Assembly (NCBI GenBank): GCA_001972305.1
Contig: BDDD01000184.1
Coordinates: 82,275 to 146,274, forward strand
From: Cephalotus follicularis
Taxonomy: Eukaryota > Streptophyta > Magnoliopsida > Oxalidales > Cephalotaceae
Length of the DNA: 64,000 bases
Direction of reading: 5' to 3'
In this document: positions 16,949 through 64,000 of the stretch, piece after piece
Layout of the letters: each line of letters begins with the position of its first letter
Position numbering within the stretch: position 1 is the stretch's first letter
Position numbers and translations under genes: made by a program
Notes under the pieces: model-generated
What the model was told of the DNA's origin: nothing
The model's input: only the letters and a program-made list of their open reading frames with translations
The model's database searches: none

Positions 16949-17306
16949 TTGCGTTTTTGGTTTTCCATGCGCCAGGTTATCGGGAGCAGCGGGGAAATGT
17001 GTGAACGAGAGATGACTACCCTATGTCTTTGGATCCCTAGGAGTGTGATCCTTGTGTTTTTATGTCTGGTGGTCATAAACCATGATACCTATGATTTCAT
17101 CTTTTAAATTTGGAACTTAGATATGTTTTAAGTCTTTCCGAAAACGCTTAATTTTTAAATTTTTATAGTTTTTCAATTATGATATGACCGCCACGTTTTG
17201 GCTAATAAAGTAATGTTATGATTATTTAAAGTTATGTTTATGTTTAGATAAGTCATGATAGGTTTTGTATTATGACCTGTGATGACTCCCGTCCGGGGGT
17301 GTTACA

Positions 17307-21643: not shown

Positions 21644-24294
21644 TGTAATACCCTGCTTACCTGTACGTCTTTTTCTTACGGGTTTTATTTGTTTCGTTTA
21701 TGAAATTGTATGTTTACGTTGGGTTTATATTGGGGCTGACTGATACCAGCCTTAAATTTGTTTGGGTTTGTTAGTATGGACTTTTGGGCTTGGGTAAATT
21801 AGTTATATTATTATTATGATTAATTCCATAAATCAATTTTAAAAAGCCTTTTTAAAATACCATCTTTTATTTTTAATCTTTCCTTTTCTTTATTTTTCCT
21901 TTCCTTTTATTTTCCTTTTTATTTCCTCTCAAATTCTCTCTCCCTCTCACGACATCTCTCCCTCTCAAACTCTCTCTCCCGAATTCTCTCCTTCCATCAT
22001 AATTTTTACACGGCAATAATCCCCTCCTTCCATATCAATATGATTTTGTCTCATTGTTTCCTTATTCTTTCCCCAATTTCCTCTTCTTTTCTGTTTTGGA
22101 TTATGTTGCTATATATGTGTGTCAAGCCTTCGTTTCTGCCATATCTCCTTGCTGCCGAACCTGCCATTGGAAGAGTCACTGAGTTTCTTGTGTTTTTGCC
22201 TCATTAAACAGGTTAGTTCTTCTTGTTTTGTACATAGAAATCGTTCTTGGCAATGTGGGTATTGTTGGCAGGCTTGAATTCTGATGTCTTCCTCTCGTTT
22301 TTCCTTTGTGATCAACCACTGTGTCATTCAATTGGTGATCCTGCAATCGTTTTTGACATCCAGCAGGTTGGTTTTCTATATGGTTATGCCTTAGTAATCT
22401 GTTTTTGGATCATTGTCATCAAAATATGAATTTTGGTTGCTAAAGATGATTTTAATTATGGTTTCGGTATCCTTGTTCTTCTGTCAAGTAACTGTGTGTT
22501 AGCAGCCATCTGTAGACATCTAGGAATCGATATACAATCTGGCTTGATGCATGTAATGGTGATAGTGGACAGAATTGGATTAAATGTTAGTATGCAATGG
22601 TTTAAAGTCCCTGTCACATTGAAAGAATTTTCTGTCAACATGCTTATGTCAAATTCTGTGTTGCTACAATGTTTAACATGTCATATTAAGTTATTTTACA
22701 TGTTGGTAACCTTCTAGGGTCAAACAAATCCAAGTCTTGGTTGCTAAAATTGCACAAACTGCACAGAATTGCTGTTCTGATAACCAGAACAGTCGACTGT
22801 CCGTATGAACAAGTCGACTGTCTGCAAGTCCAGGTTGGGTAGTCGACTGGCCCTGTTGTGTAGTCGACTGCCACCCATTGTTAGTCGACTGGATTCTTCA
22901 AACAGTCAGCTGGTTTGTCCTGTAAACTTCTATTTTCGTCCGTTTATTATTCCGATGATCCGGGTTTATTTGTAAACATCATTATGATTCTGTTTTATGC
23001 CCAAGATGAATTTTAGACCCTTATATGAATGCTTTCGTATTGTTTAGATTATTGTGCTACGTGAAGCAAAATAAATTTACCGGTTATTCGTAAGCTTATC
23101 TGTGATCGTACAAGGTACGAATTCTTCCTTCCATGACACATTCTTACTGTTTCAGTTCTGTTTGAAATTAAATACAGATTTTGATTTTGTTATCACTCGG
23201 TTTTATGAATATGCTTCCGTTTGGTTTATGAATTCCGTATATTTGGGTTTTTGGAAATAAAGTCGTTTGGTATTTTATGAAGTAAACATTCTAACTTTAT
23301 GAAATCAGTTATGATGTATTTACGAAATGATATACAATCATCTCTTTATTGTGAAATTAAATGAGTTTATTTTTTTTCTGATTATGAAAGTATGTGAAAC
23401 TATATCGTTTGAGTACGATTTATGGTAATGGTTTGGGAAACGTTTTATTTACTTTAAAATGATTTGATGAAATCATGTTTTTGGAAATGGTAATATACTG
23501 AGCTTTTATAACCACCTATGGGGGTACCATAGGCATGCTGTGAGCCTGGCACGGGGGCATGACACTTTCCGTAACGGTGTGATTAGTTTACGGCGTCTCT
23601 CTGGGATATCCGTAGATCGGATTTGGGATAGAGGCGTATGGATCGATCCTAGTTATATGTTATTGGGATATGTTTGGGATATGGGAATTGTATGTGTAGT
23701 GCCGTATACTACAATTCCATTGGCAACGTGGGTGTCGCGAACCCCTTGCTACTATATGATATGTTTTGGGTTTTGGTGCTCAGTTTATTGATCCTATGTT
23801 TTGGAAAGGTACACCTTATGGTTTATATGTTTTGCCGTGGGCATTTATAAAACATGTTTAAATTATTTTATTGCTTAAGATTTCAGTTTTAATGTACTTT
23901 TGGAAATCTTCCTGCTTTAAAATATTGTTTACTGTTTTATATTCTATATCCGTACTGAGGTTTGCTCAGCCGCGTTTTTGTTTACATGCGGCAGGTTATC
24001 AGGAGCAAAGGGGCAATGTGTGATGAGAGTGACTCCCATATATCTGAGGATCGTCTAGTAGCTGATCCTTTTGTGTTATGTGGTCATAGTGGAACCCGAT
24101 AATTAAACAATGTGTTATTTCAGTTTATGACTTTTGGATTTTGAATAAGCTTCAGTTTATGATCAGTTTTTATATGTTTTGGTTATGCTTTAAACCATCA
24201 CGTTTTTAATAAAGATGAACGTTATCAATATGATATGTCCTGTTTAGTTTCGGTATTATGCACTGTGGCGACTCCCACAGATCAGGGGTGTTGC
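21644..24294 (+). repeat. C 5' LTR (family A)
   Basis: A 2.65-kb LTR starting TGTAATACCC and ending GGGGTGTTGCA (the 3' LTR has GGGGTGTTACA). It carries an oligopyrimidine CTCTCTCCC tract (about 21930-21990), a GTCGAC array, the CCTATGG dyad at 23515-23533 and the CTGAGGTTTGCTCAG dyad near 23955. Small open frames in it are not conserved coding sequence. Confidence 0.95.
22790..22912. repeat. GTCGAC array (C 5' LTR)
   Basis: About six units of the CAGTCGACTG dialect. The matching array in the 3' LTR (29300-29463) has an additional segment of about 41 bp with two more units, lying between two copies of CGACTGTCT. Confidence 0.9.
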
Positions 24295-24300
24295 AGTTTA

Positions 24301-24312
24301 TGGTATCAGAGA
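24301..24312 (+). other. C primer binding site
   Basis: TGGTATCAGAGA lies 6 bp after the 5' LTR end. It matches the initiator Met tRNA type site except for the last base. Confidence 0.85.
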
Positions 24313-24469
24313 ATAGGTTTTGTTCCTTAGGAGACCTAACTAGGTTTGACCTGTGAGCTTGGGTAGACTTGGGTTAGGACTGTTCTGTTATGTTTCGGTC
24401 TTTCTGATATCTTTTTCTGTTTTGATTTTGGGTTTCAGTTTGATAATACGTGTTCGGTTTCTTTCATAG

Positions 24470-25878
24470 ATGGATGCATAAGAAACGCTCCGCAGAGAAC
24501 TGCACCAGCTGGGGCTTGAAATGAAGCTAGAAATGAGCCTTCTGTGGAAGAGTTGGTCCGTCAAGCAGTTGCTTAGGAAGTGAATCGAGTTATGCAACAA
24601 CAACAGAACCGGGAACAAGTTGTTGAGGAGAATGCTCCGGCAGAGGTTCAGGCGGGTGTGGAAACTGGGGACAGGCATGGCACCCCTACTCATGTTTGGC
24701 TTGAACGGTTTCAGAAACAGAGGCCGCAGTCTTTCAGTTCGGCTGTGACTCCGGTGAAAGCTGAACACTGGATAGCACACATGGAGAAAATCTTTAATGT
24801 TCTGAGGTGTGATGATCAGCAGAAGGTAAGGTTTGCGGCTTACAAACTCAAAGGGGATGCTTAGAAATGGTGGAATGCTCTGAATTCAGCTAAAGGTGGA
24901 GGTTATACAGATACTCTGTCATGGTTTGAGTTCCGGGATGTCTTCTATCAGCAGTATTTCCCCACTGCTGATAAGGAGGCCTATGCTAGAGAGTTCGTAA
25001 ACACCGGGCAGAAAGATGGAGAGACAGTTTCGGAGTTCTTGACCCGTTTCACTAGATTAGCTGGGTTTGCTGGATCCATGGCGGGGTCAGCATCAGAGCA
25101 AGCTGAAAAGTTTAAGTGGAAGCTGCATTATCAGCTTAGGTGAAAACTGATGAACTCCAGGTTTGCGGATGTCGCCAAAGTTGCTAACGCCGCGAAAAAC
25201 ATTGAATTAGAGAGATTGGATTTTCAGGCAGCTCGTCTGGAAGGAGATAAGAAGCGGAATAGGAGTGAACAAGGTTCTGGACAGCAGAACAAGGGTCAAG
25301 GCAGTTCATGGAATAGGGGCAGAGGAGGTAAACAACATAAGAAAGATCACAAGCAGAATAGAGATGGTAATCAACAGCGTCAGCAAGGAAATGACCAGAA
25401 AAATGCACAGGGAGCTGATGGGGGTAGCCCCGATGTTCAGATTGCTAGGTGTGATGCTTGTGGTAGGTATAATCCGGTCGGTACCTGTTATAAAGTCAAT
25501 GGGGCTTGCTTTGTATGTGGGCAGATGGGACACTTCACGAAGGATTGTCAGGATCCTCATGCTAAGGAAAGGAAGGGAAATGGTGCAAATGCTGGGCAGC
25601 GCAATGTTGGAGGCCGAGTCTTCGCAATTATGGCTCATCAGGCAGCTAATGCTCCAGGTACGGTTTCGGGTTTTATTTCTGTTGCTAACCGTAGAGCTTA
25701 TGTGTTATATGATACTGGATCGACATACTCGATTGTGGCGAGGTCTTTTGTTCGGCATCTTGGGATGCCTTCGCAGTTGTTTGATCCAGCTTTGGTTCTT
25801 TCTACCCCTATGGGGACATCTGTTATGATATCTGAGTGTTTTTATGCTTGTCCTATTGTTTTTGATGTTCGGGTCTGA
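24470..25878 (+). pseudogene. C gag and protease
   Basis: A start at 24470 (MDA) meets a stop three codons later and then a frame change near 24530. From there the frame is shared with pol. Gag is recognised by WLERFQKQRPQSF, AEHWIAHMEKIFNVL, the Gln/Asn/Gly-rich linker and one CCHC knuckle, C-FV-C-GQMG-H-FTKD-C, near 25500-25550, preceded by a CDACG..NPVGTC motif. Protease follows: VLYDTGSTYSIVA has the catalytic Asp. In-frame stops lie at 24574, 24862, 25141 and 25876; at least some fit TGG or CGA codons lost by C-to-T changes. Confidence 0.85.
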
Positions 25879-28308
25879 GATGCGGATCTTCTTCCTCTTG
25901 ATATGTATGATTTCGATGTTATTCTGGGGATGGATTGGTTGGAGCGTCATCGGGCTACGATTGATTGTCACGCTCGGAGGATTCTGTTCGGAGATGTGCA
26001 TCGACCTGATTTTATTTATCAGGGTTCATGGCCTATGAAGGATGGTAAGATCATATCGGTTATGAAAGCTCAGAAGTTGGTAGCTATGGGCGTCAAAGGG
26101 TTTCTGGCTGTTGTGAAGGATGTCTCAAGGGCCGAGTCTCGCCTTGAAGATTATCCTGTGGTTAGAGAGTTTTCTGATGTGTTTCTGGAGGAGTTACCGG
26201 GTTTGCCACCGCAACGGGAAGTGGAGTTTACCATCGAACTCATTCCTGGTGCGGCACCTATATCTAAAGCACCATATAGGATGGCACCGCTTGAATTGCA
26301 AGAGCTGAAAGAGCAGTTGCAAGAATTGTTAGATCGGGGTTTTATCCGGCCGAGTGTTTCGCCGTGGGGAGCTCCGGTTTTGTTTGTCAAGAAGAATGAC
26401 GGATCTATGAGACTGTGTATTGACTACAGAGAACTGAATCGAATCACTGTTCGTAATAAATACCCTTTGCCTAGGATTGATGACCTGTTTGATCAACTCC
26501 AAGGTGTACGGTATTTTTCTAAGATCGATTTGAGGTCTGTATATCATCAATTGCGGATAAAAGATGAATATGTGCCTAAGACTGCTTTCCGCACACGGTA
26601 TGGGCATTATGAATTTCTGGTGATACCGTTTGGGCTTACGAATGCACCAGCAGTGTTCATGGACCTTATGAATCGGGTTTTTCGTGAGTTTCTGGATCGC
26701 TTTGTGATTGTGTTCATCGATGATATCCTTGTGTATTCGAAATCGAAGGAGGAACATGAAGAGCAACTTCGAATAGTGCTTAGTATTCTGAGGAAGAATC
26801 AGCTATACGCAAAGTTTTTGAAATGTGAGTTCTGGTTGGAACAGGTGGCGCTTTTAGGCCATGTGGTTACAGCGGAAGGGATTTCTGTGGATCCTGCTAA
26901 GGTTGAAGCTATTACTAAATGGCCGAGACCCACTACAGTATCGCAAGTTAGGAGCTTTCTGGGTTTAGCTGGTTACTATAGGCGGTTCGTGGAAGGCTTC
27001 TCCTCTGTAGCCTTGCCACTGACTCAGCTTATGAGGAAGGGAGCGAAGTTTGTGTGGAATGACGAACGGGAAGCAAGCTTCGAGAAGTTAAAGAACGGTC
27101 TTGTGTCTACACCGATTCTCCGTTTACCGTCTGGGTCGGGAGGATACCAGATTTATAGTGATGCTTCTAAAAAGGGTTTGGGTTGTGTTCTGATGCAGCA
27201 TGGTCATGTGATAGCATATGCTTCGAGACAGTTGAAGCCTTATGAATTGAATTACCCTACGCATGATCTCGAGTTGGCGGCAGTTGTGTTTGCACTGAAG
27301 ATTTGGAGGCACTACTTGTATGGAGAAACTTGTGACGTCTTTACCGATCATAAGAGTCTCAAGTACATCTTCACGCAAAAGGAGTTGAATATGCGTCAGA
27401 GACGTTGGTTGGCGCTTTTGAAAGATTACGATCTGAATATTCAGTACCACCCTGGTAAAGCAAACGTGGTAGCTGATGCTCTGAGTAGGAAGAGTTCTGG
27501 GAGTGTGGCAGCTTTGGTTACGCAGTCGCATTTGATAGCAGATATGGAGCGATTGGATTTGAATCTGTTTGTTCATGGTTCAGATGGGTATATGGCTGGC
27601 ATGAATATGGAACCTACCCTTATATCTCGAATTAAGGCAACTCAAAATGATGACGATGAACTTTGGGCCTTGGTTCAAAATGTTGAAAAGGGGAAACAGT
27701 CAGAGTTCCGTGTGGATGAGCATGGAGTGATCTGGTTGGGTAGTCGGTTGTGTGTTCCGGCAGATGCTTCTATCAGAGATGCTGTTTTATCTGAAGCACA
27801 TAGCTCTCCGTTCTCTATACATCCGGGTTCTACAAAAATGTATAGGGACTTGAAGGAAAATTTCTGGTGGAGCGGAATGAAGAGGGATGTAGCAGAGTTT
27901 ATCAGGAAGTGTTTGGTCTGTCAGCAGGTTAAGATCGAACACCAGCGAGCTAGTGGTTTGTTACAGCCCTTAGAAGTTCTAGTATGGAAATGGGAGAGTA
28001 TTGCGATGGATTTTGTTACAGGTTTGCCGAGAACTTACAGAAGAAATGATGCTATATGGGTTGTTGTGGATCGGTTGACCAAATCAGCTCACTTCTTGGC
28101 AATCCGAGAGGACTTTTCTGTGGACCGCTTGGCGGAAGTTTTCCAACGGGAGATTGTGAGACTGCATGGGACTCCTGTATCTATTGTTTCGGATAGGGAT
28201 CCCCGTTTCACTTCACGGTTTTGGAAGGGATTTCAAAAAGCTTGGGGTACTAGACTAAATTTCAGTACAGCTTTCCATCCACAGACAGATGGGCAGACAG
28301 ATGGGTAA
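25879..28308 (+). pseudogene. C pol: RT, RNase H and truncated integrase
   Basis: A single open frame of about 800 codons from 25903. It has DVILGMDWL (end of protease region), RT blocks ([37 protein letters not shown] with both Asp), RNase H ([56 protein letters not shown]) and integrase ([43 protein letters not shown]). It ends just after HPQTDGQ, before the third catalytic acid, where a deletion joins it to the 3' LTR. RT and RNase H look intact; integrase is dead. Confidence 0.9.
28282..28305 (+). repeat. 12-bp tandem duplication at the C deletion junction
   Basis: CAGACAGATGGG occurs twice in a row (28282-28293 and 28294-28305), immediately followed by LTR sequence that matches 21795 onward. 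The shared GGG overlaps the LTR sequence GGGTAAATT. This looks like end joining with a short templated repeat. Confidence 0.85.
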
Positions 28309-30849
28309 ATTAGTTATATTATTATTATGATTAATTCCATAAATCAATTTTAAAAAGCCTTTTTAAAATACCATCTTTTATTTTTAATCTTTCCTTTTCT
28401 TTATTTTTCCTTTCCTTTTATTTTCCTTTTTATTTCCTCTCAAATTCTCTCTCCCTCTCACGACATCTCTCCCTCTCAAACTCTCTCTCCCGAATTCTCT
28501 CCTTCCATCATAATTTTTACACGGCAATAATCCCCTCCTTCCATATCAATATGATTTTGTCTCATTGTTTCCTTATTCTTTCCCCAATTTCCTCTTCTTT
28601 TCTGTTTTGGATTATGTTGCTATATATGTGTGTCAAGCCTTCGTTTCTGCCATATCTCCTTGCTGCCGAACCTGCCATTGGAAGAGTCACTGAGTTTCTT
28701 ATGTTTTTGCCTCATTAAACAGGTTAGTTCTTCTTGTTTTGTACATAGAAATCGTTCTTGGCAATGTGGGTATTGTTGGCAGGCTTGAATTCTGATGTCT
28801 TCCTCTCGTTTTTCCTTTGTGATCAGCCACTGTGTCATTCAATTGGTGTTCCTGCAATCGTTTTTGACATCCAGCAGGTTGGTTTTCTATATGGTTATGC
28901 CTTAGTAATCTGTTTTTGGATCATTGTCATCAAAATATGAATTTTGGTTGCTAAAGATTATTTTAATTATGGTTTCGCCATCCTTGTTCTTCTGTCAAGG
29001 AACTGTGTGTTAGCAGGCATCTGTAGACATCTAGGAATCGATATACAATCTGGCTTGATGCATGTAATGGTGATAGTGGACAGAATTGGATTAAATGTTA
29101 GTATGCAATGGTTAAAAGTCCCTGTCACATTGAAAGAATTTTCTGTCAACATGCTTATGTCGAATTCTGTGTTGCAACAATGTTTAACATGTCATATGAA
29201 GTTGTTTTACATGTTGGTAACCTTCTAGTGTCAAAAAAATCCAAGTCTTGGTTGCTAAAATTGCACAAACTGCACAGAATTGCTGTTCTGATACCCAGAA
29301 CAGTCGACTGTCCGTATGAACAAGTCGACTGTCTAGTTGAGTAGTCGACTGGACCCCTGATCCAGCCGACTGTCTGCAAGTCCAGGTTGGGTAGTCGACT
29401 GGCCCTGTTGTGTAGTCGACTGCCACCCATTGTTAGTCGACTGGATTCTTCAAACAGTCGGCTGGTTTGTCCTGTAAACTTCTGTTTTCGTCCGTTTATT
29501 CTTCCGATGATCTGGGTTTATTTGTAAACATCATTATGATTCTGTTTTATGCCCAAGATGAATTTTAGACCCTTATATGAATGCTTTCGTATTGTTTAGA
29601 TTATTGTGCTACGTGAAGCAAAATAAATTTACCGGTTATTCGTAAGCTTATCTGTGATCGCACAAGGTACGGATTCTTCGTTCCTTGACACATTCTTACT
29701 GTTTCAGTTCTGTTTGAAATTAAATACAGATTCTGATTTTCTTATCACTCGGTTTTATGAATATGCTTCCGTTTGGTTTATGAATTCCGTATATTTGGGA
29801 TTTTGGAAATAAAGTCATTTGGTATTTTATGAAGTAAACATTCTGACTTTATGAAATCAGTTATGATGTATTTAGGAAATGATATACAATCATCTCTTTA
29901 TTGTGAAATTAAATGAGTTGATTTTTTTTTTCTGATTATGAAAGTATGTGAAACTATATCGTTTGAGTACGATTTATGGTAATGGTTTGGGAAACGTTTT
30001 ATTTACTTTAAAATGATTTGATGAAATCATATTTTTGGAAATGGTAATATACTGAGCTTTTATAACCACCTATGGGGGTACCATAGGCATGCTGTGAGCC
30101 TGGCACGGGGGCATGACACTTTCCGTAACGGTGTGATTAGTTTACGGCGTCTCTCTGGGATATCCGTAGATCGCATTTGGGATAGAGGCGTATGGATCGA
30201 TCCTAGTTATATGTTATTGGGATATGTTTGGGATATAGGAATTGTATGTGTAGTGCCGTATACTACAATTCCATTGGCAACGTGGGTGTCGCGAACCCCT
30301 TGCTACTATATGATATGTTTTGGGTTTTGGTGCTCAGTTTATTGATCCTATGTTTTGGAAAGGTACACCTTATTGTTTATATGTTTTGCCGTGGGCATTT
30401 ATAAAACATGTTTAAATTATTTTATTGCTTAAGATTTCAGTTTTAATGTACTTTTGGAAATCTTGCTGCTTTAAAATATTGTTTACTGTTTTATATTCTA
30501 TATCCGTACTGAGGTTTGCTCAGCCGCATTTTTGTTTCCATGCGGCAGGTTATCAGGAGCAAAGGGGCAATGTGTGATGAGAGTGACTCCCATATGTCTG
30601 AGGATCGTCTAGTAGCTGATCCTTTTGTGTTATGTGGTCATAGTGGAACCCGATAATTAAACAATGTGTTATTTCAGTTTATGACTTTTGGATTTTGAAT
30701 AAGCTTCGGTTTATGATCAGTTTTTATATGTTTTGGTTATGCTTTAAACCATCACGTTTTTAATAAAGATGAACGTTATCAATATGATATGTCCTGTTTA
30801 GTTTCGGTATTATGCACTGTGGCGACTCCCACAGATCGGGGGTGTTACA
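28303..30849 (+). repeat. C 3' LTR, lacking its first ~148 bp
   Basis: It aligns with 21792-24294 almost base for base. Besides point differences it has about 41 bp more within the GTCGAC array (29300-29463). The end GGGTGTTACA is followed by target duplication ACTGC. Confidence 0.95.
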
Positions 30850-30854
30850 ACTGC

Positions 30855-31046
30855 CCCATGTGGCAGTCGGCTGTCGACGGCTGTGTTTAGGGTTTCTTAG
30901 CTTGTTACTTCACCAAATGTTCATCCATTCATCCCAAGCAATTACCAAACACAATTTGATAATAATTGGACAAGTAATTCAATTAAAATGTATATTTATT
31001 TCAACAATGGAATCAATATACATTAATTGGATTTGCGGTTATTACA
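30855..31046 (-). mobile_element. F3: solo LTR of gypsy family B, right part
   Basis: Continuation of the LTR interrupted at 21643. It starts in the GTCGAC array and ends ..TTGCGGTTATTACA at 31046, followed by the target duplication AGAGG. Confidence 0.9.
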
Positions 31047-32510
31047 AGAGGACTTCTAAGGGAAATAATGAAATCACTTAGGTTATTAAACACATTCTTG
31101 ATTATGAAGGGTCAGTGCTTTCACTGCGATGAAGATAGGCACTGAAAACATAATTGTATGGTCCGCCCTACAATTTTGAGCAAACCTTGAGAAGGATTGT
31201 CTCGGTTATTTGATATTGACAATATGAACCGGCAAGTCAAGTCGATGGGTTTAGGTGGTCAGGTTGGTGATTAAGGATATTTTATCCAAGATCATGGAGA
31301 CCAGCCTGTTTATCCTATATCAAAGACAACACTTGTGCCAATGAGGTTAGGATGATTCCTTCTTCAAAGGCAAGAGTCCGGTTTGTATTTAAATAGTACA
31401 TAGATTTTTTCTATTGTACTTAAATATCAAATAAATAACCAAAAGGAAAATGAGATGATTGATATAATCACAAAAATAATCAATATTAATACTGATTTGT
31501 TTATGCGCATTTGTTGTGCACACACAAGGTTCGCATGGACTTATTAGTTGCATATTGATTAATACATGAGATGTGAAGGGCATAGTTAACAATGTAGCCA
31601 TATTGGGTGAATCCATGGGATACATCATAAATCTATACCCTCGGCAATAAAGACTAAGTCAAGTCTGTGAGATAAGGATTAGCGAGTCGGTTTATCCTGG
31701 GTATGTCCATATCCTGGATTGTCAATCCGACCTGCGAATTCTGTCTTACAGGCAACATGACTTAATCTCCCTCTGTACGACATTGGGAGAAGTCTTTAAA
31801 GTTTCCAGTCTTATGTTCGGTTCATGATTCTACGTGGATTGCTAATAGCTGGCGCTCATGGGGATTTTATGTAATTCACATCCTTACTTGTCTTTTATTA
31901 AAGTAAGGAGCATTTGTACTTGAAAGGGTACAAGTGTGAATTCTTTTGAATAGTTCGAAGAATTCAAATGTGAATTATCAGAAGGAACTGAAAGGGTTTT
32001 TGACGGATCTTGATGAGATTGAGAAAGTGCAAAAAATCTTCAGTGAGTTTCTGTTTCATCTCAAACAAGAATGAGATTTTCTATTAAAGGAAGAGCAGAT
32101 TGTGTCTTATGTGATGAGATAAAATGAAGTGTCTATCTTACAGGCTTTCCTTTTTCCTTTTAGTTAATACCCTTCAAATAATTATTAAGTAAGGAACATG
32201 GTGTTGGAAACCTGGGAGGGGTCCTAGTCGATTTTGAGTCTAGGATGCTAGTGTGTATAATTTTTATTTTTCAAAAAACACCAAGACTGCAAGTCATGGT
32301 TCACACTGACATCTTACTACCATAATCAATAAACCGAGGATCTCCGTTTAATTATCAATCGAATTAAAATAAAAACAAGCATGCACACAAAAACATAAAC
32401 CGAAAACACATCGGTAACCATAAAAACAAAAGGGAAGCAACCATACCAACGTTGGAGACTCCACCACTTTGCCACTACGCGCTTGCAGCAGCCACAGCCC
32501 TTCACAGGAC
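31047..32510. other. Old unassigned stretch with a possible copia gag knuckle
   Basis: At 31115-31157 the plus strand reads C-FH-C-DEDR-H-*KHN-C, the spacing of a retroviral CCHC knuckle with one stop inside, similar to copia gag knuckles. Nothing else in 31160-32510 gives a recognisable protein. The stretch 31640-32160 looks like non-coding LTR or leader sequence of a copia element, but I cannot place it. AGGAC at 32506-32510 is the left target duplication of Co2. Confidence 0.35.
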
Positions 32511-33097
32511 TGTTGGAACCTTATGGCGATTTAGCAATAAAATATCTAGATGCATAAAACCCTAATATATATATTGTGTGATCATCTCATGAATATCAAG
32601 CCATATGGTTCGTTTCCATGATCTTTTGAGCATACATATATAGTTAGATATAAATCAATAGGGAGGAGCAAGCGAAATTACTCACATGATTGGAGCGGCT
32701 CCTTCCTTCTTCCACTGTGTCTTCTTGCTCCCAAAAGCAGAGCTACTTGTTGAACGAATGAAACGGTTCTAGCTTCCAAGTATAGAAAGCCTCCAAGGTA
32801 TCCACACCAAGCTTCAATTTCTAACACTAGGTTTCCCAAACTTTCAACTCTTGATTGTATATGAGAGAGAGGAGAGAAGACACCAAGAGAGAGAACAAAA
32901 ACATCCAACAACTCTCTAAATAGGAAGGTGAGTGTGTTCTATATATACTTGCTGCTAGACAATTATATTAGAACACAAACTATTATCCTATCATGCTTAG
33001 GGTTTCCTAATGCATTCAGGATTCTTCCTTAGATAGTCTTTCTCTCCTTTTTGACTTCTACTTTCCTTAATCTCATTCAGGATAATTAATCTCATTG

Positions 33098-33128
33098 ATT
33101 TTATATATATATATATATATATATAAAA
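33098..33128. repeat. (TA)n dyad ATTTTATATA..TATATAAAAT
   Basis: A TA run of about 24 bp flanked by inverted ATTTTA/TAAAAT, a perfect self-complementary stretch within the Co2 3' LTR. Confidence 0.85.
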
Positions 33129-34013
33129 TCTCATTAATTATATTTATATATAATTAGGAAATAACATACCAATTATTTTTCTCTCATCACGTGTTACAAA
33201 AATCAGCCTGTATTGTGTGTGAACCTATGGGTTCACTATTACGCTGGCCGTAGGATTAATATTGTGATGCTCACAATTATTCGATTAAATATTTATTATC
33301 ACATAAAAAAAATTATCTCGAATATTTCGAATCAAAACTCTTTTAATTCTTTTCTTCCAAAATTAATTTATCAATTCAATCTCGGGTATCCTACTGGTCG
33401 ACATCGACATCTAGCAATGCATAACGACCCCCAGGTAATATGAATAATTTGTGAACCACTATTTACAGGTACATGCACGTATAGTCCCTCCACTGACAAT
33501 GCTCTAATTAAATCTAGGGTACGGATTATGTCAGATCCCAATAATTTAATCTTTAGCCTCGTGACTATCTTTCATCAGCCTTAATAATATTAGAGGTGCC
33601 CCTCTAATATTCAACCAATGATATCACACTCTTGATATCGTGGCTAGCCTGGCTAGGCGTTTAATTGCTAATGAAAATCATCCTGAGCATAATCTTCTTT
33701 TACTAGAAGCAATGGATTCATTGTTCCCAGTTCACATGACTCCATACATAAGCGTACTATATCCAACTAATGTCTGTATACACCTCATAGAATATGTATT
33801 TAAGCATCATCAAAACACAGCACCCTATGCACAAGACATCCAGTGACAACTCATGTCCAAGGACCACATGCACTGCTGTAAGACTAGAATTCTGTCTGAC
33901 ATGTAAGCAAAACTCCATACAGATATTCTATCAATAGTCACCTTCAATGAACTCATTAAATGAGCACCCATGTAGTTGTCATAGCATCATCCATGCGAGT
34001 GAGTGTGAGATCA

Positions 34014-34147
34014 GTCACCCTCTGCTTACCAATCTGACAGTACGTGCTGGTCTATCCGGATTGACCGTGCCCTGAGTGTCACCCTCTGTTTACCGATCCG
34101 ACAGTACGTGCTGGTCTATCCAGATTGACCATGCCCTGAGTGTCAAT
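34014..34147. repeat. Tandem duplication (~63 bp, two copies) in Co2 3' LTR
   Basis: Two adjacent copies of a unit running from TCACCCTCTG through ACAGTACGTGCTGGTC to CCCTGAGTG, differing at a handful of positions. Confidence 0.9.
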
Positions 34148-34409
34148 CCTATGACCAGAAAGATTCAAAATAAAGTATACCGAGATTCAAACTCTCTCAT
34201 CATGATCTCATCATGAACTTGGTTCTCTAACTTTATTCCAGGACATTCATTTACAATTAATAAAACATGTATTAATGAAATGAACTCATAGCCATTGATA
34301 AAACATAAACATCTTTATTGAATTTATAAATCGTTTATACAAGATAAAGTAAATATAAGCTCGACACTGGCTCACAGCACTTAATCTCTAAAAATCTCCC
34401 ACTAAGTGC

Positions 34410-36031
34410 TAAAGCCAGTTGCCACAGTGTCTCACACCCATAGCATCAAGGTGTCTGTCCAAGACCGCCTTCGGTAGTGACTTGGTAAGTAGGTCTGCAA
34501 TGTTGTCTTTACTTGGAAATCTTTCAACTTTTATATCTCCACTATCAACGATCTCACGTATAAGGTGGAATCGCAATGTATTCAGCTTCTGTCACTGAAT
34601 CCGTAATGGTAGGCTTCTTGGAACTCTTCCATCTCACTGCTCCACCATTTAAGGTGAACACAAACCCTGATGTCGATTTTGAATCATCCACATCTGTCTG
34701 AAAATTAGAGTCAGTAAAGCCCTCAATCTTCAAACCGTTTCCTCCATACATCAAGAATAAATCCTTAGTCATGTTAAGGTACTTGAGGATATCTTTGACA
34801 GCCTTCCAGTGACCCTCACCTGAATCTGACTGATATCTGCTTGTAACACTTACAGCATATGCGATATCTGGTCTAGTGCAAAGCATAGCATACATGACGC
34901 TTCCTATTGCTGAAGCATATGGAATGTGCATCATACTTTGTCTTTCTTCAACTATCTTGGGAGACATCTATTTAGAAAGTGAAATTCCATGACATAGAGG
35001 TAGATAACCTCTCTTGGAATTTTCCATGCTAAACTTCTTACGCACTCTGTCAATGTACAAAGACTGGGACAACCCTATCATCCTTCTAGATCTATCTCTA
35101 CAGACCTTTATCCTGAGGATATTGTAAGCTTCTCCCAAGTCTTTCATTGAGAAAACTGTAGATAACCAGGCATTTACGTTTGACAACATGATCACATCAT
35201 TTCCTATAAGGAGTATGTCATCAACGTATAAGACCAGGAAAGCCACGAAGCTCCAACTAACCTTTTTAAACACACATGGTTCATCTCGATTCTTAATGAA
35301 ATCAAACTCTTTGATTGTCTCATCGAATCAGATGTTCCAACTTCTCGAAGTTTGCTTCAGTCCATAAATGGACTTATGAAACTTGCACACTTTCTAGTCC
35401 TCACCAGTGGATATGAAACCCTCAGGCTGAGTCATATATATGTCTTCATCAATGTATGCCATATCTCATAGCCAAAATGTGCAGCTATAGCAAGTAAAAT
35501 CCGAATGAATTTAAGCATGGCTACGGGAGAGAAAGTTTCCTCATAATTAATCCCTTCCCTTTGGTTGTAACCTTTGGCTACGAGCCTAACTTTGAAGGTC
35601 TTCACCTTTCCATCATCTCCAAGTTTCCTTTTGAAAATCCATTTGTAACCTAAGGTTTTAACCCCTTTGGGTGCATCCACTAGATTCCAAACTTGATTGG
35701 AGTGCATGGATTCCATTTCAGAATTCATGGATTTGAGCCATTTCTCCGAGTCCATATTGCATATTGCTTCTTTGTAGCTTACCGGATCATCATTAATGAA
35801 ATTTACCTCTTCGGTACCTTCAATGAGAAGGCTACCATAATATCTCTCAGGTTCCCTGGGTAATCTGGTAGTTCTACACGGAGGTTGTGTATCTGTAGTA
35901 GCTGACATTTCAAGAACATCAATTTGAACAGAATTGTATAGGCCCTCAACTTGTGGTTCTTTAGATCGTTCATCTAATTCTATCATACTCCCACTACTGT
36001 CTTCCAACAGGAAGTTCTTCTCAAGAAAAGT
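34410..36031 (-). pseudogene. Co2 pol: reverse transcriptase and RNase H
   Basis: The minus-strand reading has EKWLKSMNSEMESM, NQVWNLVDAPKG, GYKWIFKRK, RLVAKGYNQREGI, then YVDDILLIGND with both catalytic Asp, and after a break near 34970 the SAIGSVMYAMLCTRPDIAYAV block and RNase H (GFTDSNFQTDVDDSKSTSG, WKSSKKPTITDSVTEAEYIA). It ends near 34415 with DNIADLLTKSLPK. Stops and at least two frame changes are present. The first residues directly continue the integrase end on the other side of F2. Confidence 0.8.
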
Positions 36032-37612
36032 TGTAACACCCCCAGACGGTAGGAGTCCTTACAAGTCATAACTTAACAAAACTCAACTGAACACAAGCAT
36101 AACTTTATTAGCAAAATACGTGGTGATCATAACATAGCAATATATGATAACGTAACTGAAAACTCAACATAATCTGAGAACTTAAACATAAACCATTTGT
36201 TAAATACTGAAATCATAAACCAACATATAACATATTGTTCACAGGCTAGTCCTAACATGACCAGATAACCACAGAACATAACAGGATCACAATCCTAGGA
36301 GATCCTCTGACATAAGGGTGACACCTCTCATCACACATTGCCCCGATGCTCCTGATAACCTGCCGCATGGAAACAAAAACGCGGCTGAGCAAACCTCAGT
36401 ACGAATAAAGAATGTAAAAACAGTAAACGATAATTTAAAAGCAGAAGATTTCAGAAATTAACTCACAACAGAAATCTTAAGCAATAAATTATTTAAACAT
36501 TCTTGGAAGTCACATCTGAACTTTCATAAAAGCCAAATCCATAACTTTCGATACATATAGAAAACCTTTCAACATAAAGTCCATACTGAGCCACATAACA
36601 TATCACATATCAGTACACATATATAGCAAGAGAGGCGCTAATTCCACATGCCAAGTAGAATTGAAGTGTACAGCACTACACAAGTCAATTCCCATATCAC
36701 ATCATATCACATATTGCATATCTCATCACGTATGCCATATACTAGAATCGATTCATACGCCTCTATCATACATAACGGATCCATAAATCCACCTCATGGG
36801 ATTTATCGTCGTAGACTAATCACACCGCTACGGAAGTGTCATGTCCCCGTGCCAGGCCTACGACATGCCTATGCTACGCCCCATAGGTGGGTACACTACT
36901 CAGTATTTTTCCCTATTTCCAAAAGATTGATTTTATCTAAATCAATTTAAAACACATATAAAAATGTTTGTTTTCAGACATATCCAAAAATTGTTATCAA
37001 ATGATGTCATTTGCACATTGCATACATTTTCATAATCGGAACATCAACTCATTTATTTCCACCATAAAGAGATGATCATAACATATTTCATAACATATCT
37101 TAGCATAAGTATAAAGTCAGGAACATTCAATTTCTCAAAATGTCAAAATTGACTTTATTTTCAGAACATATCAAGAACATAAAAACATAACCGAATTCAT
37201 AAAAACGAAGGAACATATCATAAAAAATAAAGCTGAATTTATCGAAGAGTGTGTCAAAGAGCAGAATATCCATACCTTGTGCGCTCACAGAAAATAACTT
37301 ACAAAAAGGCTGATAAATTCTAAATTCCCTTCGTAGTACAAAAATCTAAAAGACATAAAACCATTCATATGAGGGTCTGAAAAATCATTGTAAGCATAAA
37401 ACAGTATCACTACTATGTTTAAAACATACCCCAATTAAATGGAAATGCAATCTGACCAAGAAAATTGAAAACAGAAATTTCCTAGACAAACCGGGCGACT
37501 GTTACAGAGCTCCAGCCGACTGCTGGAAGCTTGGTAGTCGACTATCCAACGGGGCCAGCCGACTACACAAACTGGACTGCAGCCAGTCGACTGTGACAGG
37601 GATCCAGTCGAC
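36032..37612 (-). mobile_element. F2: solo LTR of gypsy family A, left part
   Basis: Starts (plus strand) TGTAACACCCCC at 36032 and, after nested element D, continues at 45328 to ..GGTATTACA at 46564. Target duplication AAAGT is perfect (36027-36031 and 46565-46569). Combined LTR length is about 2.8 kb, like F1 and the C LTR. Family-A marks are the reverse-complement CTGAGCAAACCTCAG near 36386 and the CCTATGG-type dyad near 36885. Confidence 0.9.
37480..37612. repeat. GTCGAC array of F2, split by element D
   Basis: CAGTCGACTG-dialect units (GCCGACTG, TAGTCGACTA, CCAGTCGACTG) run up to the D border and continue at 45323-45418. D sits inside a CCAGTCGACTG unit: its target duplication is TCGAC. 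Confidence 0.9.
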
Positions 37613-39522: not shown

Positions 39523-42500
39523 ATGGCCGATGCGAGAAGAGGAAGAGGACAAAGGCGAAATGCGAATGCACAGAACAATGAGGATGATAATTCGCTAAGC
39601 GCGATTTTAAACAGATTGGCTCAAGTTATTGCCGACAACAACGGCAATAATCATTAAGAGCATCCACCGTCAAGACCGACGCTAGAGCAGTTTGCGAGGT
39701 ACAATCCGAAAATCTTTTCGGGAACAACCGATCCTTTGGAAGCGGAAGCATGGATCCAAGGGAACGAGAAGATTTTTAGAGCGATGGATTGCACAGACCG
39801 ATAGAAAGTAGAGTTTTCAATATACAAGTTAGATGGAGAAGCGGATCAATGGTGGTGTATGATTGAGAGAACCAAGACGCGTCAAGAGAGAGAAGCGATG
39901 ACATGGGAAGGGTTCAAAGAAATATTTATGAACAAATATTTTCCACAAGCCTTGAAGGATAAAATGGAGGAAGATTTTCTCCAACTGGAACAAGGTGAAT
40001 CTGAAACAGTGGCTCAATACGAGGCAAATTTCGCAAGGATGTCTCGTTATGCGAATCATCTTGTATCAACAGAAGAAAGAAGGGCAAACAAGTTTTGCCA
40101 AGGTCTAAAATCTTACATCAGGAGGATGGTAATAGCACAAGATCTGCAGACTTATGACGCAGTTTTGAGGTGTGCACTGAGGATAGAAATTGATAACCAA
40201 AGATATCAGCAAAGACGGGCTGAACAAGGGCAAGGGAAGAGGAAAACAGGTGAATCCTTTAACAGTAAGCATAAGAAAGCAAGGTCCGATGGAGGACAAG
40301 GCTCAAAAATTTGTCAAGAATGTGGGAAAACACACCGTGGAAAATGTTTATGCAGGACGGGAGTGTGTTACAAATGTGGAAATCAAGGACACTTAGCTAA
40401 AGAGTGTCAACAAGGACCAAACCAAGCCCAGAATCAAAGGACGATCAGATGCTACAACTATGGACAGGAAGGTCACATGTCCAAGCAATGCACCCAACCA
40501 AAGATGGGAGGGCAAGGAGGGAACGGAGCCCAGCAACAAAGAGCACCAGCAAGAACCTATGCCATGGCGGCAGACGAGGTGGAAAATCCCAATGATGTGG
40601 TGACAGGTACTTTTCCCATATGCTCTAGATCTACATATGTATTGTTTGATACGGGAGCGACGCATTATTTTGTGTCTTTATCTTTTGCACGATATTTAAG
40701 TACCCCATCACAAGATTTGGAGATAGGTTTAGCTATTGAAACCCCAGGTGTTAATACTTTGGTGGCTGATAAAGTGCACAAGTCTTGTGACCTAATATTA
40801 TGTGATAGGATGATGCTAGTAGACTTAGTACCTCTAGCAATCCTAAAGTTTGACGTCATACTAGGCATGGATTGGCTTTTGCCGAATCATGCTAGTGTTG
40901 ACTATTTTAAGAAGGAAGTTAGGTTTGCTATACCGGAACAACTTAAGTTTGTTTTCCGAAGCATGGGAGCCAGTGAACCCTTAAAGATCATATCGTCGAT
41001 GCAAGCTAAGCGATTGTTGGAAAGAGGATGCGAAGGCTATCTTGCCTATGTGATGGATACCGATAAAGAGAAGATCAAGATAGAAGAGTTACATGTTGTT
41101 AAGGAGCTCACCGATGTTTTTCCTGAAGATTTACCTGGTATGCCAACGGACCGAGAAGTGGAGTTTTCTATTGATGTGGTATCGGGAACAGCTCCTATTT
41201 CAAAGAGCCCTTACCACATGGCACCAGCTGAGCTGAAAGAGTTGAAGGATAAATTACAAGAGCTTTTGGATAAAGTATTTATCCGATCGAGTGTATCACC
41301 ATAGGGTGCACCGGTACTGTTTGTGAAAAAGAAGGACAGGACAATGAGACTCTGCATAGACTACCGAGAGTTGAATCAAGTCACCATTAAGAACAAGTAC
41401 CCACTACCGAGGATTGATGACTTGTTCGACCAGCTCAAGAATGCTCGATACTTCTTGAAGATTGATCTTCGATCGGGCTACCATCAAGTGAAAGTCAAGA
41501 AAGAGGATATACTGAAAACTGCTTTTCGGATAAGATATGGGCATTACGAGTTTTTGGTAATGTAGTTTGGATTAACAAATGCTCCAGCGGTGTTTATGAG
41601 TTTGATGAACAAAATCTTCAATGAATTTTTGGATCAGTTCGTTATAGTCTTCATTGATGACATCCTAGTATACTCAAAGAGTAAGGAGGAGCACGAGGAG
41701 CATTTAACCCGTGTATTACAGATACTGCGGAAGGAGCAGTTCTACGCTAAGTTTAGCAAATGCCAGTTCTGGATAGAAGAAGTATCCTTCTTGGGACACG
41801 TGATCACGAGGGAAGGTATCTCTGTAGACCCTATTAAGACAGAAGCGATAAGAGAATGGCAGAGACCTACCTCAGTAGCCGAGATACGGAGTTTTCTGGG
41901 ACTGGCAGGCTATTATCGAAGGTTTGTTGAGAATTTCTCTCGTATTAAGAACCCGCTCACAAGGTTGACACAGAAGAATGTAAAGTTTGAGTGGCCCGAC
42001 CAATGCGAGAAGAGTTTCTTGGAGTTGAAAGAAAGACTGATGAATGCCCCGATATTAGCATTACCGACGGAATCAGAAAGTTTTGTGGTGTATAGTGATG
42101 CATCTCATAAAGGACTTGGTTGCGTGTTGATGCAACAAGGAAAAGTGATTGCCTATGCTTCCAGGCAGCTTAAAGCACATGAACAGAATTATCCTACGCA
42201 TGATTTGGAATTGGCTGCAGTTATCTTCGCGCTGAAGATTTGGAGACACTATCTATATGGAGCGAAGTGTGAAATCTTCACCGACCACAAAAGCCTGAAG
42301 TATATTTTCACCCAAAAGGAGTTAAACATGAGGCAAAGGAGATGGTTAGAGCTTATCAAGGGTTATGATTGCACCATTCAATACCATCCGGGTAAAGTGA
42401 ATGTTGTGGCAGACGCCCTAAGTAGAAAAAGTATGGGGAACTTGGCTATGATGATCACTACAAAGGAAGAATTGATAAAAGATTTCCAACGGATGAACTT

Positions 42501-51854: not shown

Positions 51855-53099
51855 TCATTGCGACACCATCGTACTAGCAACAATAGCCTTGCGACTCAAG
51901 GCATCAGCGACCACATTTGCTTTCCCCGGGTGGAACTGAATACTGCAATCATAATCGTTAAAGAATTCCACCCACCTACGTTGCCTCATGTTTAGTGTGT
52001 CTTGACAAAATAGGTACCTCAAACTCTTATGATCGGTAAAGATCTCAAACTGCGCCCCATACAGATAGTGCCTCCACTTCTGAAGGGCAAAGATAATAGC
52101 TACAAGTTCAAGGTCATGAGTCCGGTAGTTTTCTTCATATGGCTTCAGCTTCCTGGAAGCATAAGCGATCACTCTTCCTCGCTGCATCAGCACGTAGCCC
52201 AAGCCCTTACCCGATGCATCACTATAGACTGCAAAGCCCTCATTACCCTCAGGTAATGCCAAGATAGGGGCGGAAACCAACCGATCCTTCAGTTCATAGA
52301 AACTAGCTTCACAATCTTCGTCCCAGATAAACAAGGTCTTCTTCTGGGTTAGTCTGGTCAAGCGCTCGACTATCCTTGAAAAGTTCTGGATAAACATCCT
52401 GTAATACCCCAACAAGCCAAGAAAACTGCGTATCTCCATCACATTCTTCGGCTGTGGCCAATCTCGTACCACCTCTGTCTTTGACGGATCCACCGCCAAA
52501 CCTTCTCCAGATACAATATGACCAAGAAAGATCACACGGTCAAGCCAAAATTCACACTTACTGAATTTGGCATACAGATGCTGCTCTCGGAGAATCTGCA
52601 AAACCAACCTCAGGTGGCAAGCATGCTCCTCCTCACTCTTTGAGTATACTAGTATGTTGTCAATAAACACAATGACAAACTGGTCCAGGTACGGTCGAAA
52701 CACATCGTTCATTAATGACATGAACACAGCCGGTGCATTGGTAACACCAAAAGGCATCACGAGGAACTCGTAGTGACCATACCTTGTCCGGAAAGCAGTC
52801 ATCTCAATATCTCCTTCCCTCACCCTCAACTGGTGAGAACCTGACCTCAAATCAAGTTTCGAGAACACTCCCGCTCCTTGCAACTGGTCAAACAAATCCT
52901 CGATGTGGGGTAAAGGATACTTGTTCTTGATAGTTGCCTTGTTCAACATTTTATAGTCGATGCAGAGCCTCATTGACCCATCCTCCTTCTTGACAAACAG
53001 TATAGGTGTACCCCACGGAGAAACACAGGGTCGAATAAAACCCCTACCGATCAGATCTTGTAACTGCAATTTCAGTTCCCTCAATTTTGCAGGAGCCAT
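51855..53099 (-). pseudogene. E pol: reverse transcriptase and RNase H
   Basis: A continuous minus-strand frame of about 414 codons with [91 protein letters not shown], then RNase H ([55 protein letters not shown]). The RT active site has Asn in place of the second Asp (FIDN instead of FIDD), which should abolish polymerase activity. Confidence 0.9.
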
Positions 53100-56021: not shown

Positions 56022-57165
56022 TAAATACAATGTTTGAGTTCTAAACTCTGGCCCGAAGGCAACAAAATATAAACTGATCCTATGGCTGGCTTCAAATATT
56101 GAAGCAATATTTAGATCTCCCTCACCCTTCTCAAGGTTTCTTCGGTTCGTAAGGGCCTGTAAATTAGAACATATGTGAATACCACATCCGCTGTCTAAAA
56201 TCCAGGAAGATGAATGAAAAATATTCATATTCACCTACAAATTAGACAAATGGGGCATACTGTAGCCAATTGATCGAAGGAATGTCACATAGTTCCTTTT
56301 CCAATGTCCTTGCTTCCCACAGTGGAAGCACGGTCCCTTAACAGGAGCTTCTGAGGCAGACTCCTCAGCATGTGCAACTCTTGCGACAGTGTCCGGTGCA
56401 GCAACAACTTGCTAGTTTGTCTGATTATGTGGTCTGGCTTTCGCTGGTTTGAAGGATGTCGGTCTTGGTGGTATCGTCCCATTTTTAGTCTTCCCCTTCT
56501 CAAGGTTGGACTTGCCCTTCTTCTTGGGCCTACGGGACGATCCTACCATCATGACTGGGGCCTTGCACTTATTCATGTTCACTTCGGTTTCCCTTAGCAT
56601 GTTTAGAAGATCAAGCAGAGTAGCTGATATCCTATTCATGTTAAATTTGTGATGAAACCATAGAAGGAAGGTGAAAGCGAGTGAAGAATCAGATCTGTGC
56701 TTAATTCAGCATCCTGAATGAGGCCAAGAGCAGCAAGATGTTCAATTACATTGATCATCTTAAGCACATTATCATTAACAAAAGATCCTTCAGCCATTTT
56801 AGTGCCATACAGCTCAGCAGTGAGCTGGAACCGAGCATTCCTACTAGTATATCCGTATAACTCGCGAAGATGTAGGAGAATTTCCCTAGAATCTCGCATC
56901 GATTCATGTTGGATTTGTAGGGGATCGTTCATCGATGCCATTACGTAGCTTCTGACTTTCTTTTCATCATCCACCCATTTCTCATAAATGGCACGATCTT
57001 CACTTGAGGCATCTTCAGCAAGCAGTGCTGGCATAGGGGCCTCTAGGACATACTCTATGTCCTCAGAATTCATAACTATTTTGACATTCCGTAGCCAGTC
57101 CACATAATTTGGACCTGTCAACTGATTCTTATCAAGAATTACAGTGAGGGGGTTTGTCTACAGAT
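56022..57165 (-). pseudogene. Co2 gag and protease start
   Basis: Minus-strand gag: TNPLTVILDKNQLTGPNYVDW, MPALLAEDASSEDRAIYEKW, VMASMNDPLQIQHE, LYGYTSRNARFQLTAELYGTKM and VNDNVLKMINVIEHLAALG, a UBN2-type copia gag. After a frame change comes the knuckle C-FH-C-GKQG-H-WKRN-Y (56285-56330), in which the last Cys is Tyr. Protease is seen in SWILDSGCGIHICSN, with the catalytic Asp. It stops at the E border; the rest continues at 47623. No clean start codon was found. Confidence 0.8.
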
Positions 57166-60523: not shown

Positions 60524-61552
60524 AAATCTCGTTATTATTATTATTATTATTATTATTATCCAAACCTTTATTAATCAAATTACAGGTACATGGCATAATA
60601 TGAAGAGGTTGTTGGAACCTCTAAGGGGGAGGTCGTTGGAACCTCAAGAGAAAAATTTAGACATGCATCACATACATACTATAAACTAATGGCAGGTTAT
60701 GGACTTTACTACAGCAACTTGTATGACTCTCAAACAAGCTGCTGGTCTCATTCATAGGTATGTTATTGCAATCATACATTCGCTCCCATACATGCATGGG
60801 TCTTGTAATATCATCGTTCTCCTCCAACTTGCTTCCGCTGCGACACTCGCTCTTCAATTACATAAACCAACTATAAACTATAGAAACCTTGAAATAAATC
60901 AAAGGGAGTTACAAGGAGGTGAAGAAGAATTACATATATAAATTAAGAGGGAGAAGAGAGACATGCAAGTCTCTAAAATATTACAACCCAAAAAATATGA
61001 AATAAAAACATACATTCAACACTTGAATTAAATAAGATCAAATAAGATCAAATTCATAGCCATACCATCATGCATATTAAATCTCATTGAATTAACTAAT
61101 AATCTTGATAGATATATTTCTAAAAATATAGACAATTGATTGGGTAAATTGGAAAAACTCTTTTTCCCGTAATATTAACACAAAACCGTCGACGCTTTTA
61201 CACAAACCGTCGACATCCATGTGTTGAGCGTCGACGCTTGCGTTCCTTTGTGTGCGTAAGCGTCAACGCTTTTCTCAAAAACGTCGATCGTTTTACGCGC
61301 AGGCATCAACATCTTACTCGAGTGAAGACGCAGTTTTAACGCATTAGTGCCTAAGAGTCTTCGTGCCATTCCTGCAGTGGTATCACGTGTAGGCGTCGAC
61401 ACTTTTCAGGAGGGCGTCGACGCTTTCGCGAATGCGGAAAATTCTAAATCGCAAATTGGCATCCCATGCTTCCGTCTCACGGATTAAACCCAAAAAATTC
61501 AAGCATATCTTCAACAAAAATGTTTCTAACTATATATATGCATCAAATCCGT
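60524..61552 (-). other. Co2 leader, outer part
   Basis: No coding sequence recognised. It holds an (ATT)n microsatellite at about 60532-60560, a twice-repeated GTTGGAACCTC (60610-60646) that resembles the Co2 LTR end, and a GTCGAC array (61185-61430). Confidence 0.65.
61185..61430. repeat. GTCGAC array, GCGTCGACGCTTT dialect (Co2 leader)
   Basis: About ten words such as ACCGTCGACGCTTTT, AGCGTCGACGCTTGCG, AGCGTCAACGCTTTT, GGCGTCGACACTTTT and GGCGTCGACGCTTTCG, about 120 bp from the primer site. Here the array is in the leader, not in the LTR. Confidence 0.85.
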
Positions 61553-61563
61553 CTCTGATACCA
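61553..61563 (-). other. Co2 primer binding site
   Basis: On the minus strand TGGTATCAGAG, 3 bp from the 5' LTR end (61567). Initiator Met tRNA type. Confidence 0.85.
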
Positions 61564-61566
61564 TTG

Positions 61567-62155
61567 TGTCGGAACCTTAGGGCGATTTAGCAAAAAAAAA
61601 TCTAGATGCATAAAACCCTAATATATACATATATTGTGTGATCATCTCATGAATATCAAGCCATATGGTTCGTTTACAGGATCTTTTGAGCATACATATA
61701 CAGTAAGATATAAATCAATAGGGAGGCATTGGTAGAATTACTCACATGATTGGAGCGGCTCCTTCCTGCTTCCTTTGTGTCTTCTTGCTTCCAAAAGCAC
61801 AGCTACTTGTTGAACGAATGAAATGGTTCTAGCTTCCAAGTATAGAAAGCCTCCAAGGTATCCACACCAAGCTTCAATTTCTAACACCAGGTTTCCCAAA
61901 CTTTCAACTCTTGATTGTATATGAGATAGAGGAGAGAAGACACCAACAGAGGGAACAAAAACATCCAACAACTCTCTAAATAGGAAAGGGGGGTGTGTTC
62001 TATATATACTTGCTGCTTGACAATCATATTAGAACACAAACTCTTATCATATCATGCATCTGGTTTCCTAATGCATTCAGGATTCTTCCTTAGATAGTCT
62101 TTCTCTCCTTCTTGACTTCTACTTTCCTTAATCTCATTAAGGATAATTAATCTCT
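61567..62155 (-). repeat. Co2 5' LTR, directly readable part
   Basis: Aligns directly with 32511-33093 of the 3' LTR with scattered differences, up to ..GGATAATTAATCTC. There the match stops abruptly. It resumes only if the sequence is continued backwards from 64000. Confidence 0.9.
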
Positions 62156-64000
62156 TTAAGTATTTCATATACTATGAATTTCTAAGTCCATAAAAAGATA
62201 GAGTATTTTAATAGCAAAATACAAAATACTAAGATATAGGCATGACTCCAAACAAGTCGGCGCAAAAACAAAGGTACGCCGTCCATGATACCCTGTCGTA
62301 GGCCCGTCACACACTACTCGCTCTACAGTGGATACTATTCTAATGAATCCTCTACCTGAGCAAAAACGAATCAATAAAATGCCAGTACAATCCTGGGGCA
62401 TTTTGATATAATACAAAAAGTCAAAAATGAATCTTAATACAAATTCGAAAACCAAATACAAAATTGAAGGTCTAATACAAATTCAAAATATAAACCTTAT
62501 TTCAAAGATCTGGTAATAATCTAATATTAACAATGCAAATCTGGTAGTGCGTTAAACTATTTTCTACTCAATTATAAACTATCATTCTTATTTCCGCTTG
62601 GAACTAAATATCAATTTTTACTTATGTATGATTCAATTATTTAACTATTTTTCTTATTTTGGTTCAGTACAATCTTCTAGCCAATACTTATCAAATCCTA
62701 ATCCTGGGCACTGCTGAGGGAGGCTTAGCCCCCACAATGTCAGGCACAATCTCTAATTCACGACACTCGGCCACAGCTCGAACATAAATGAAATAGAACA
62801 TATTTGCTAAATATTTAAGTTATTTCTACAAATACAAAATAGTTACCGATACTCAAGCAAAGTAATTATGTACGAAATAATTAACATTTACTTACAGGAC
62901 CTTATTTCAATCTCTTGGTTCAAGTACTACTCTAGTACTACACTCTCAACCTTAGAGCCATATGAAATAAAGCTTAGAAGGACCAGTATCCTAACTGTGA
63001 GTCCCGTACTAGTTAGGCCTATCTGGTCGTGCATGACAGCCTAGCCATTCGTCTCCCACTGACTAGAGTGTGAGTGAGCGTACCTACTACGATACTGTTG
63101 ATGCACCCACGAGTAAATTACTCAAGTGACTTCCACTGACAACTATCTTATAGACATACCTCAAAATGAATGTACAGTCTGTCTTAAGATCAAAATGTCG
63201 TCACGTACACCAGGAACCTGTACTCGGCAGTGACCTACAGAACACGTATCCCACGACACAAAACTACTACGAATTTATGTATAAGATACTTCACATATGT
63301 TCGTAATCAACCTGTATCATGCGAATACATACCTCCGTACACTTGACCGTTGTTACTTAGGTAACGAAGATCATTTTCTTCTAATACGAGTCCTACTAAA
63401 AGCAATCGCTAATTTGCGGACCGGTCCGATCGGTGCTATAGTTCTCACACTATAGTAACCAACTTATAATCTCCCCGTGGAGATTATAATAATTCCGATT
63501 ACTTTCTATCAGTGCTCCGATTTCTAATTTAATAACCCCAGACTGTATTAGGCATGGGATCTAAATTAATCTCGTAACAGTTACCTCCCTGATATGCACG
63601 TACATGGACATTTATCACCAAGTGTTTAATAAGTATAATGGACCCCCAGCAATACGTAACGATCTACAGCTACAGCTGGTCATCCTACGGGCTCTAATTT
63701 AACTATTTAATTAAAACCTTCTTTTCTTAATTTTCTCAAAATTAAGCTTTATAAGCTCTATTATAAAAAATACACTATTATTTATAAATTAGCTTATTAA
63801 CACTCGCAGTGTTATAATTAGGATGCCGGTCGCATTATCACTTGGGTATCCCAGTGTGTGTTATGCCCGACTATAAAGATTGTGCACTACTCTCTTTTTA
63901 TTAACCCTACAATAAAGGATTAATATAATCTTTGTGGGGTAAGTTATATTCAACTACTATTATATATATATATTATATAATATATATATATATATAATTA
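62156..64000. other. Mirror-image block: reversed but not complemented
   Basis: Read backwards on the same strand, 64000 to 62746 matches the Co2 3' LTR from about 33094 to 34393. For example the 16 bases at 63639-63654 are exactly 33421-33436 spelled backwards. Then 62745-62741 spells CGGAC (Co2 target duplication AGGAC on the left), and 62740 down to 62156 spells a family-A LTR starting TGTAACACCCCC and including CAAAAACGCGGCTG as at 36375. No direct or reverse-complement match of this kind was noticed. Any reading frame in this block, on either strand, is meaningless. Confidence 0.93.

Follow-up and report, generated by a model that had tools for sequence, protein, structure and literature searches.

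The last 1.85 kb of the window, by which we mean the whole stretch of 64,000 nucleotides analysed here, reads as a mirror image of the sequence expected there: its letters are reversed and not complemented. As far as an AT-rich tract allows it to be resolved, this mirror order continues up to the window's last base. We infer, with very little doubt, an in-place string reversal that affected either the tail of the window or the end of its source record or contig. The block is almost certainly an artefact or a planted edit and not a genomic feature.

Mirror match of the window end

The last 1,845 bases (62156–64000) were written in four forms (direct, reverse complement, complement and mirror, i.e. 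reversed and uncomplemented), and each form was compared with the rest of the window. The mirror was the sole form that matched at length, with 94.5% identity over 996 bases to 33102–34081, 96.5% identity over 314 bases to 34078–34391 and 73.5% identity over 291 bases to 36159–36436. The direct form gave matches of at most 45 bases and the reverse complement of at most 40 bases, both arising from the ~45 AT-rich bases at the end of the block. Matches of 113 bases (79–85%) to 16896, 23919 and 30473 were obtained with the complement form, others being shorter. Such matches are expected if the mirrored LTR, which belongs to a family designated A, also has copies on the opposite strand.

In Smith–Waterman comparisons with 32511–34420, the mirror form scored 2054, compared with 46 for the direct form, 50 for the reverse complement and 46 for the complement. 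The maximum score was 40 among 200 dinucleotide shuffles of the block and 39 among 32 tiles taken from other parts of the window and mirrored. A preliminary description of this DNA had proposed that the end of the window is purely reversed. The alignment of the reversed 62156–64000 segment alongside direct, reverse-complement and shuffled controls bore this out, since the mirror form lay far above all of them, and it confirmed the block as a mirror image. When the whole window was compared with its own mirror and complement (words of 9, low-complexity filter on), no second mirrored block was found elsewhere in the window at E ≤ 1e-8, and all matches listed involved the 62155–64000 block. A distant-mode search of a plasmid collection with the block as given returned no match; plant sequence is not expected in that collection, and near relatives were possibly omitted.

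The inner join was placed by trying 55 first bases (62130–62184), of which 62155 was best (score 409) and 62156 nearly as good (404). The best block end was 64000, the window's last base, when ends from 63900 to 64000 were tried with six first bases; ends at 63996, 63995 and 63993 scored 408, compared with 409 for 64000. The segment had been described as exactly 62156–64000. Its extension to the last base was upheld, and the best first base shifted by one position. Because the join abuts an AT-rich tract, its position is accurate to a few bases only. The tract, together with a short unmatched stretch by the join, differs between the two LTRs. That short stretch, at about 63917–63950 beside the tract in the mirrored part, aligned poorly with the other LTR in its un-reversed form too, probably because of ordinary AT-tract divergence. 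The true end of the block could lie some tens of bases past 64000. A random genomic block is unlikely to end so near the window edge (tens of bases out of 64,000), and this argues for a step that was applied to this text.

The restored copia-like element

When the block was un-reversed, the LTR continued at the inner join and was followed, in the expected order, by the LTR end, a target duplication and the next LTR. The features of this element and of other elements in the window are listed below in window order; those that are mirrored carry no strand.

10083–11153, minus strand: copia-type RT (domain scan)
25903–28308, plus strand: Ty3-type pol (domain scan)
32506–32510, plus strand: left-hand target duplication AGGAC, directly before 32511
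32511–34393, minus strand: left LTR (3' LTR) of the copia-like element, in normal orientation, which reveals the reversal; end placed by eye
34394–34403, minus strand: polypurine-tract-like AGTGGGAGAT just inside the left LTR, from sequence likeness
39859–41304, plus strand: gag and protease (domain scan)
51855–53099, minus strand: Ty3-type pol (domain scan)
61549–61563, minus strand: primer-binding-site-like TGGTATCAGAGACGG just inside the right LTR, from sequence likeness
61567–62154, minus strand: normal-reading inner part of the right LTR (5' LTR) of the same minus-strand copia-like element; pairs with 32511–33093, with 549 of 581 aligned bases identical
62155–64000, no strand: mirrored block (reversed, uncomplemented), from alignment, Markov and join scores; 62156 nearly as good a first base
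62155–62740, no strand: mirrored start of a family-A LTR, with TGTAACACCCCC read downwards from 62740, from restored versus as-given scores
62741–62745, no strand: mirrored right-hand target duplication CGGAC, read downwards; its left partner is AGGAC
62746–64000, no strand: rest of the same right LTR, mirrored; pairs with about 33094–34393, with 1139 of 1178 aligned bases identical over 62748–63925

The right LTR terminated in its outer end, TCTCTAACA, which is read downwards from 62754 to 62746. The preliminary description had anticipated that the block, read backwards, would continue and complete the 5' LTR of the element it called Co2, supply a target duplication and run on into a family-A LTR. 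All three were recovered. The two copies of the target duplication (CGGAC and AGGAC) agreed in 4 of 5 bases. The restored family-A stretch scored 194 against 36032–36800 (plus strand) and 107, 151 and 157 against 16700–17700, 23600–24600 and 30200–31200 (minus strand), compared with only 22–28 for the stretch as given against the same four copies.

The inner end of the left LTR was TTTT where TGTT is expected. We take TGGTATCAGAGACGG to resemble a tRNA-Met primer site, and AGTGGGAGAT is presumably a polypurine-like tract. Between the LTRs, an RVT_2 domain (E = 1.3e-22; 35432–36007) and a Retrotran_gag_2 domain (E = 3.3e-12; 56636–57121) were found on the minus strand. Their order and strand suggest that both belong to one element. 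Only in the un-reversed sequence do the LTRs form a pair that has TG..CA ends and is flanked by a target duplication. The element resembled Ty1/copia LTR retrotransposons in its two LTRs of ~1.9 kb, its primer-binding-like and polypurine-like sites, the 4/5 target duplication, and the combination of RVT_2 with a copia-type gag. It differed in that one LTR is partly mirrored here, and was otherwise an ordinary nested element.

Domain scans of 6 of the 19 open reading frames showed the window to be a nest of LTR retrotransposons, from 10083 to 57121. In the left LTR, a 64-base stretch at about 34026–34089 is absent from the right LTR and accounts for a single 64-base gap in the alignment of the mirrored part with the left LTR. 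It resembles the stretch after it and looks like a tandem duplication.

Composition and mutation patterns

The direction of the block was also assessed without recourse to homology. A strand-symmetric order-4 Markov model was used to score 34 tiles forwards versus backwards, each tile being held out of its own training while the LTR at 32511 was still included. The last tile fitted better backwards (−67.4 bits), and the remaining 33 of the 34 tiles scored between +42 and +143 bits. In a second run the model was trained without 32511–36700 and the last 3 kb, and with the family-A copies around 17, 24 and 31 kb. The block then scored −31.1, −40.7 and −55.6 bits at orders 2, 3 and 4, respectively. 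None of 604 overlapping sliding tiles from the rest of the window was negative at any of these orders, most of these tiles being themselves in the training set. The change point was located at 62191 at order 4 (4-bit range 62086–62218) and at 62197 at order 3 (62076–62827), and both ranges include the join. At order 2 it was located at 62807 (62741–62841), a range that excludes the join and counts against an in-place reversal.

Among dinucleotides, the CG ratio (0.95 in the block and 0.63 in the rest of the window, indicative of CpG depletion) and the GC ratio (0.97 and 0.92) do not separate the forward from the backward reading. Together with the nested copia and Ty3 elements, this CpG depletion of the rest of the window points to a plant source. 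TA, CA and TG do separate them: in the block as given their ratios were 1.18, 0.91 and 0.96, compared with 0.77, 1.22 and 1.13 in the rest of the window.

Substitutions between the two LTRs depended on the order in which the mirrored part was read. In restored order, CpG context was found at 10 of 30 transitions and at 56 of the 411 C/G sites that had not changed (p = 0.007, uncorrected for the four tests made). In the order as given, the corresponding context held 5 of 30 transitions and 74 of 411 sites (p = 1.0). The CHG context (7 of 30 versus 8 of 30) did not separate the readings. In the normal part of the LTR, 2 of 10 transitions and 9 of 199 sites were in CpG context (p = 0.09). Since the context of CpG decay was enriched only in the un-reversed reading, cytosines appear to have decayed in normal order. 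This suggests that the LTR pair aged in its normal reading order and was flipped afterwards, and it supports divergence of the pair in that order.

Both LTR parts were clearly LTR-like in divergence. The normal part (61567–62154 versus 32511–33093) showed 10 transitions and 22 transversions in 581 aligned bases (K2P 0.057), and the mirrored part (62748–63925 versus 33150–34391) 30 transitions and 9 transversions in 1178 aligned bases (K2P 0.034). The two parts differed in their transition/transversion ratio (Fisher p = 0.00024) and in their overall rate (p = 0.038). A late flip alone does not account for this difference in mutation pattern; one guess is that the transversion excess in the normal part came from subfamily exchange between elements.

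Origin of the reversed block

To our knowledge, inversion, gene conversion and template switching always reverse-complement a sequence or leave it direct, and no known recombination gives a pure reversal. The block also ends where the text ends: its best end coincides with the text boundary, and nearby ends score 1 lower. Taken together, these two points led us to a string reversal. The starting material would have been nested plant-type LTR retrotransposons: a copia-like LTR, represented by its outer two thirds, followed by its target duplication and by the beginning of a second LTR. Once the DNA had been sequenced, software or a person would have reversed these letters in place. The preliminary description had already put the likeliest cause in a data-handling error or deliberate editing, and the alignment with its controls, the composition, the repaired anatomy and the mutation context all speak for it. 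A plain reversal of the tail of this window is the probable form of the event, and we hold it with fair assurance.

A block of this kind is invisible to direct and reverse-complement searches, hence its relevance as a data issue. Short-word statistics compared forwards and backwards, which require no homology, could be used to screen assemblies for such errors. The block shares with records or pieces that were reversed without complementing its reversed and uncomplemented letters, its end at a text boundary and its normal appearance when read backwards. It differs from them in extent, since no more than the final 1.85 kb of the 64-kb text is reversed.

The reversal may instead have been present in the public record already, which is a sub-case of the same explanation and one that we consider rather unlikely, though a serious candidate. 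A contig-end or scaffolding script would have flipped the letter order of a piece and left it uncomplemented, with the window ending at or near the end of the record. The mirror alignment and the Markov scores speak for this case just as they do for a reversal of the window tail. It needs, however, a record or block end within some tens of bases of the window's last base. The literature searched yielded no documented example of a record that was reversed and not complemented; a passage of PMC8920891 deals with control motifs. What comes closest is a statement in PMC4304224, made in the context of parallel synthesis, that Veitia and Ottolenghi (2000) failed to amplify 'L15253' by PCR. L15253, which we take to be a GenBank entry written in mirror order, though this is not stated there, would lend some weight to an error in the record.

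It is extremely improbable that the chromosome truly carries a 1.85-kb segment of reversed letters, formed in one step by parallel-stranded copying or by polarity-reversed joining at the AT-rich tract. We know of no cell in which this class of rearrangement occurs. Such a segment, if real, would break the rule that DNA retains its strand polarity when it is rearranged, and read-level proof would therefore be needed. In the copying version, to which we give equally little credence, a polymerase would extend a primer paired in parallel, and the resulting duplex would read as the mirror of its template. Synthesis of this kind by Taq has been claimed in vitro on a 120-base single-stranded template (PD-PCR; PMC4304224), and its product would likewise be in mirror order. 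Formation of parallel strands in vitro is described in passages of PMC7303137, and an AT-rich tract does lie at the join. However, parallel copying would add an extra mirror copy, whereas the block replaces the expected sequence in place, with the LTR, its end and the target duplication each completed once. The CpG context, moreover, points to ageing in normal order. Among the matches listed, the titles and abstracts describe no kilobase-long mirror segment in a genome.

Ordinary inversion, gene conversion or template switching, which are common in nested LTR retrotransposons, can be dismissed as practically impossible. They yield direct or reverse-complement forms, and these scored 46 and 50 against 2054 for the mirror; the segment did not match as a reverse complement. 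A chance or low-complexity mirror similarity, for instance a mirror repeat of the H-DNA kind, merits just as little belief. The AT-rich last bases of the block do match in every form, but the similarity extends over 1.3 kb of complex sequence at 94–97% identity, and neither the 200 shuffles (≤40) nor the 32 other mirrored tiles (≤39) came near it. A short mirror repeat was rejected on the same long alignments of complex sequence. Mirror repeats and H-DNA share with the block a mirror symmetry within one strand. The abstracts of PMC9171763 and PMC13404959 describe mirror repeats made of polypurine–polypyrimidine tracts, whereas the sequence of the block is complex and mixed, and about 28 kb separates the arms.
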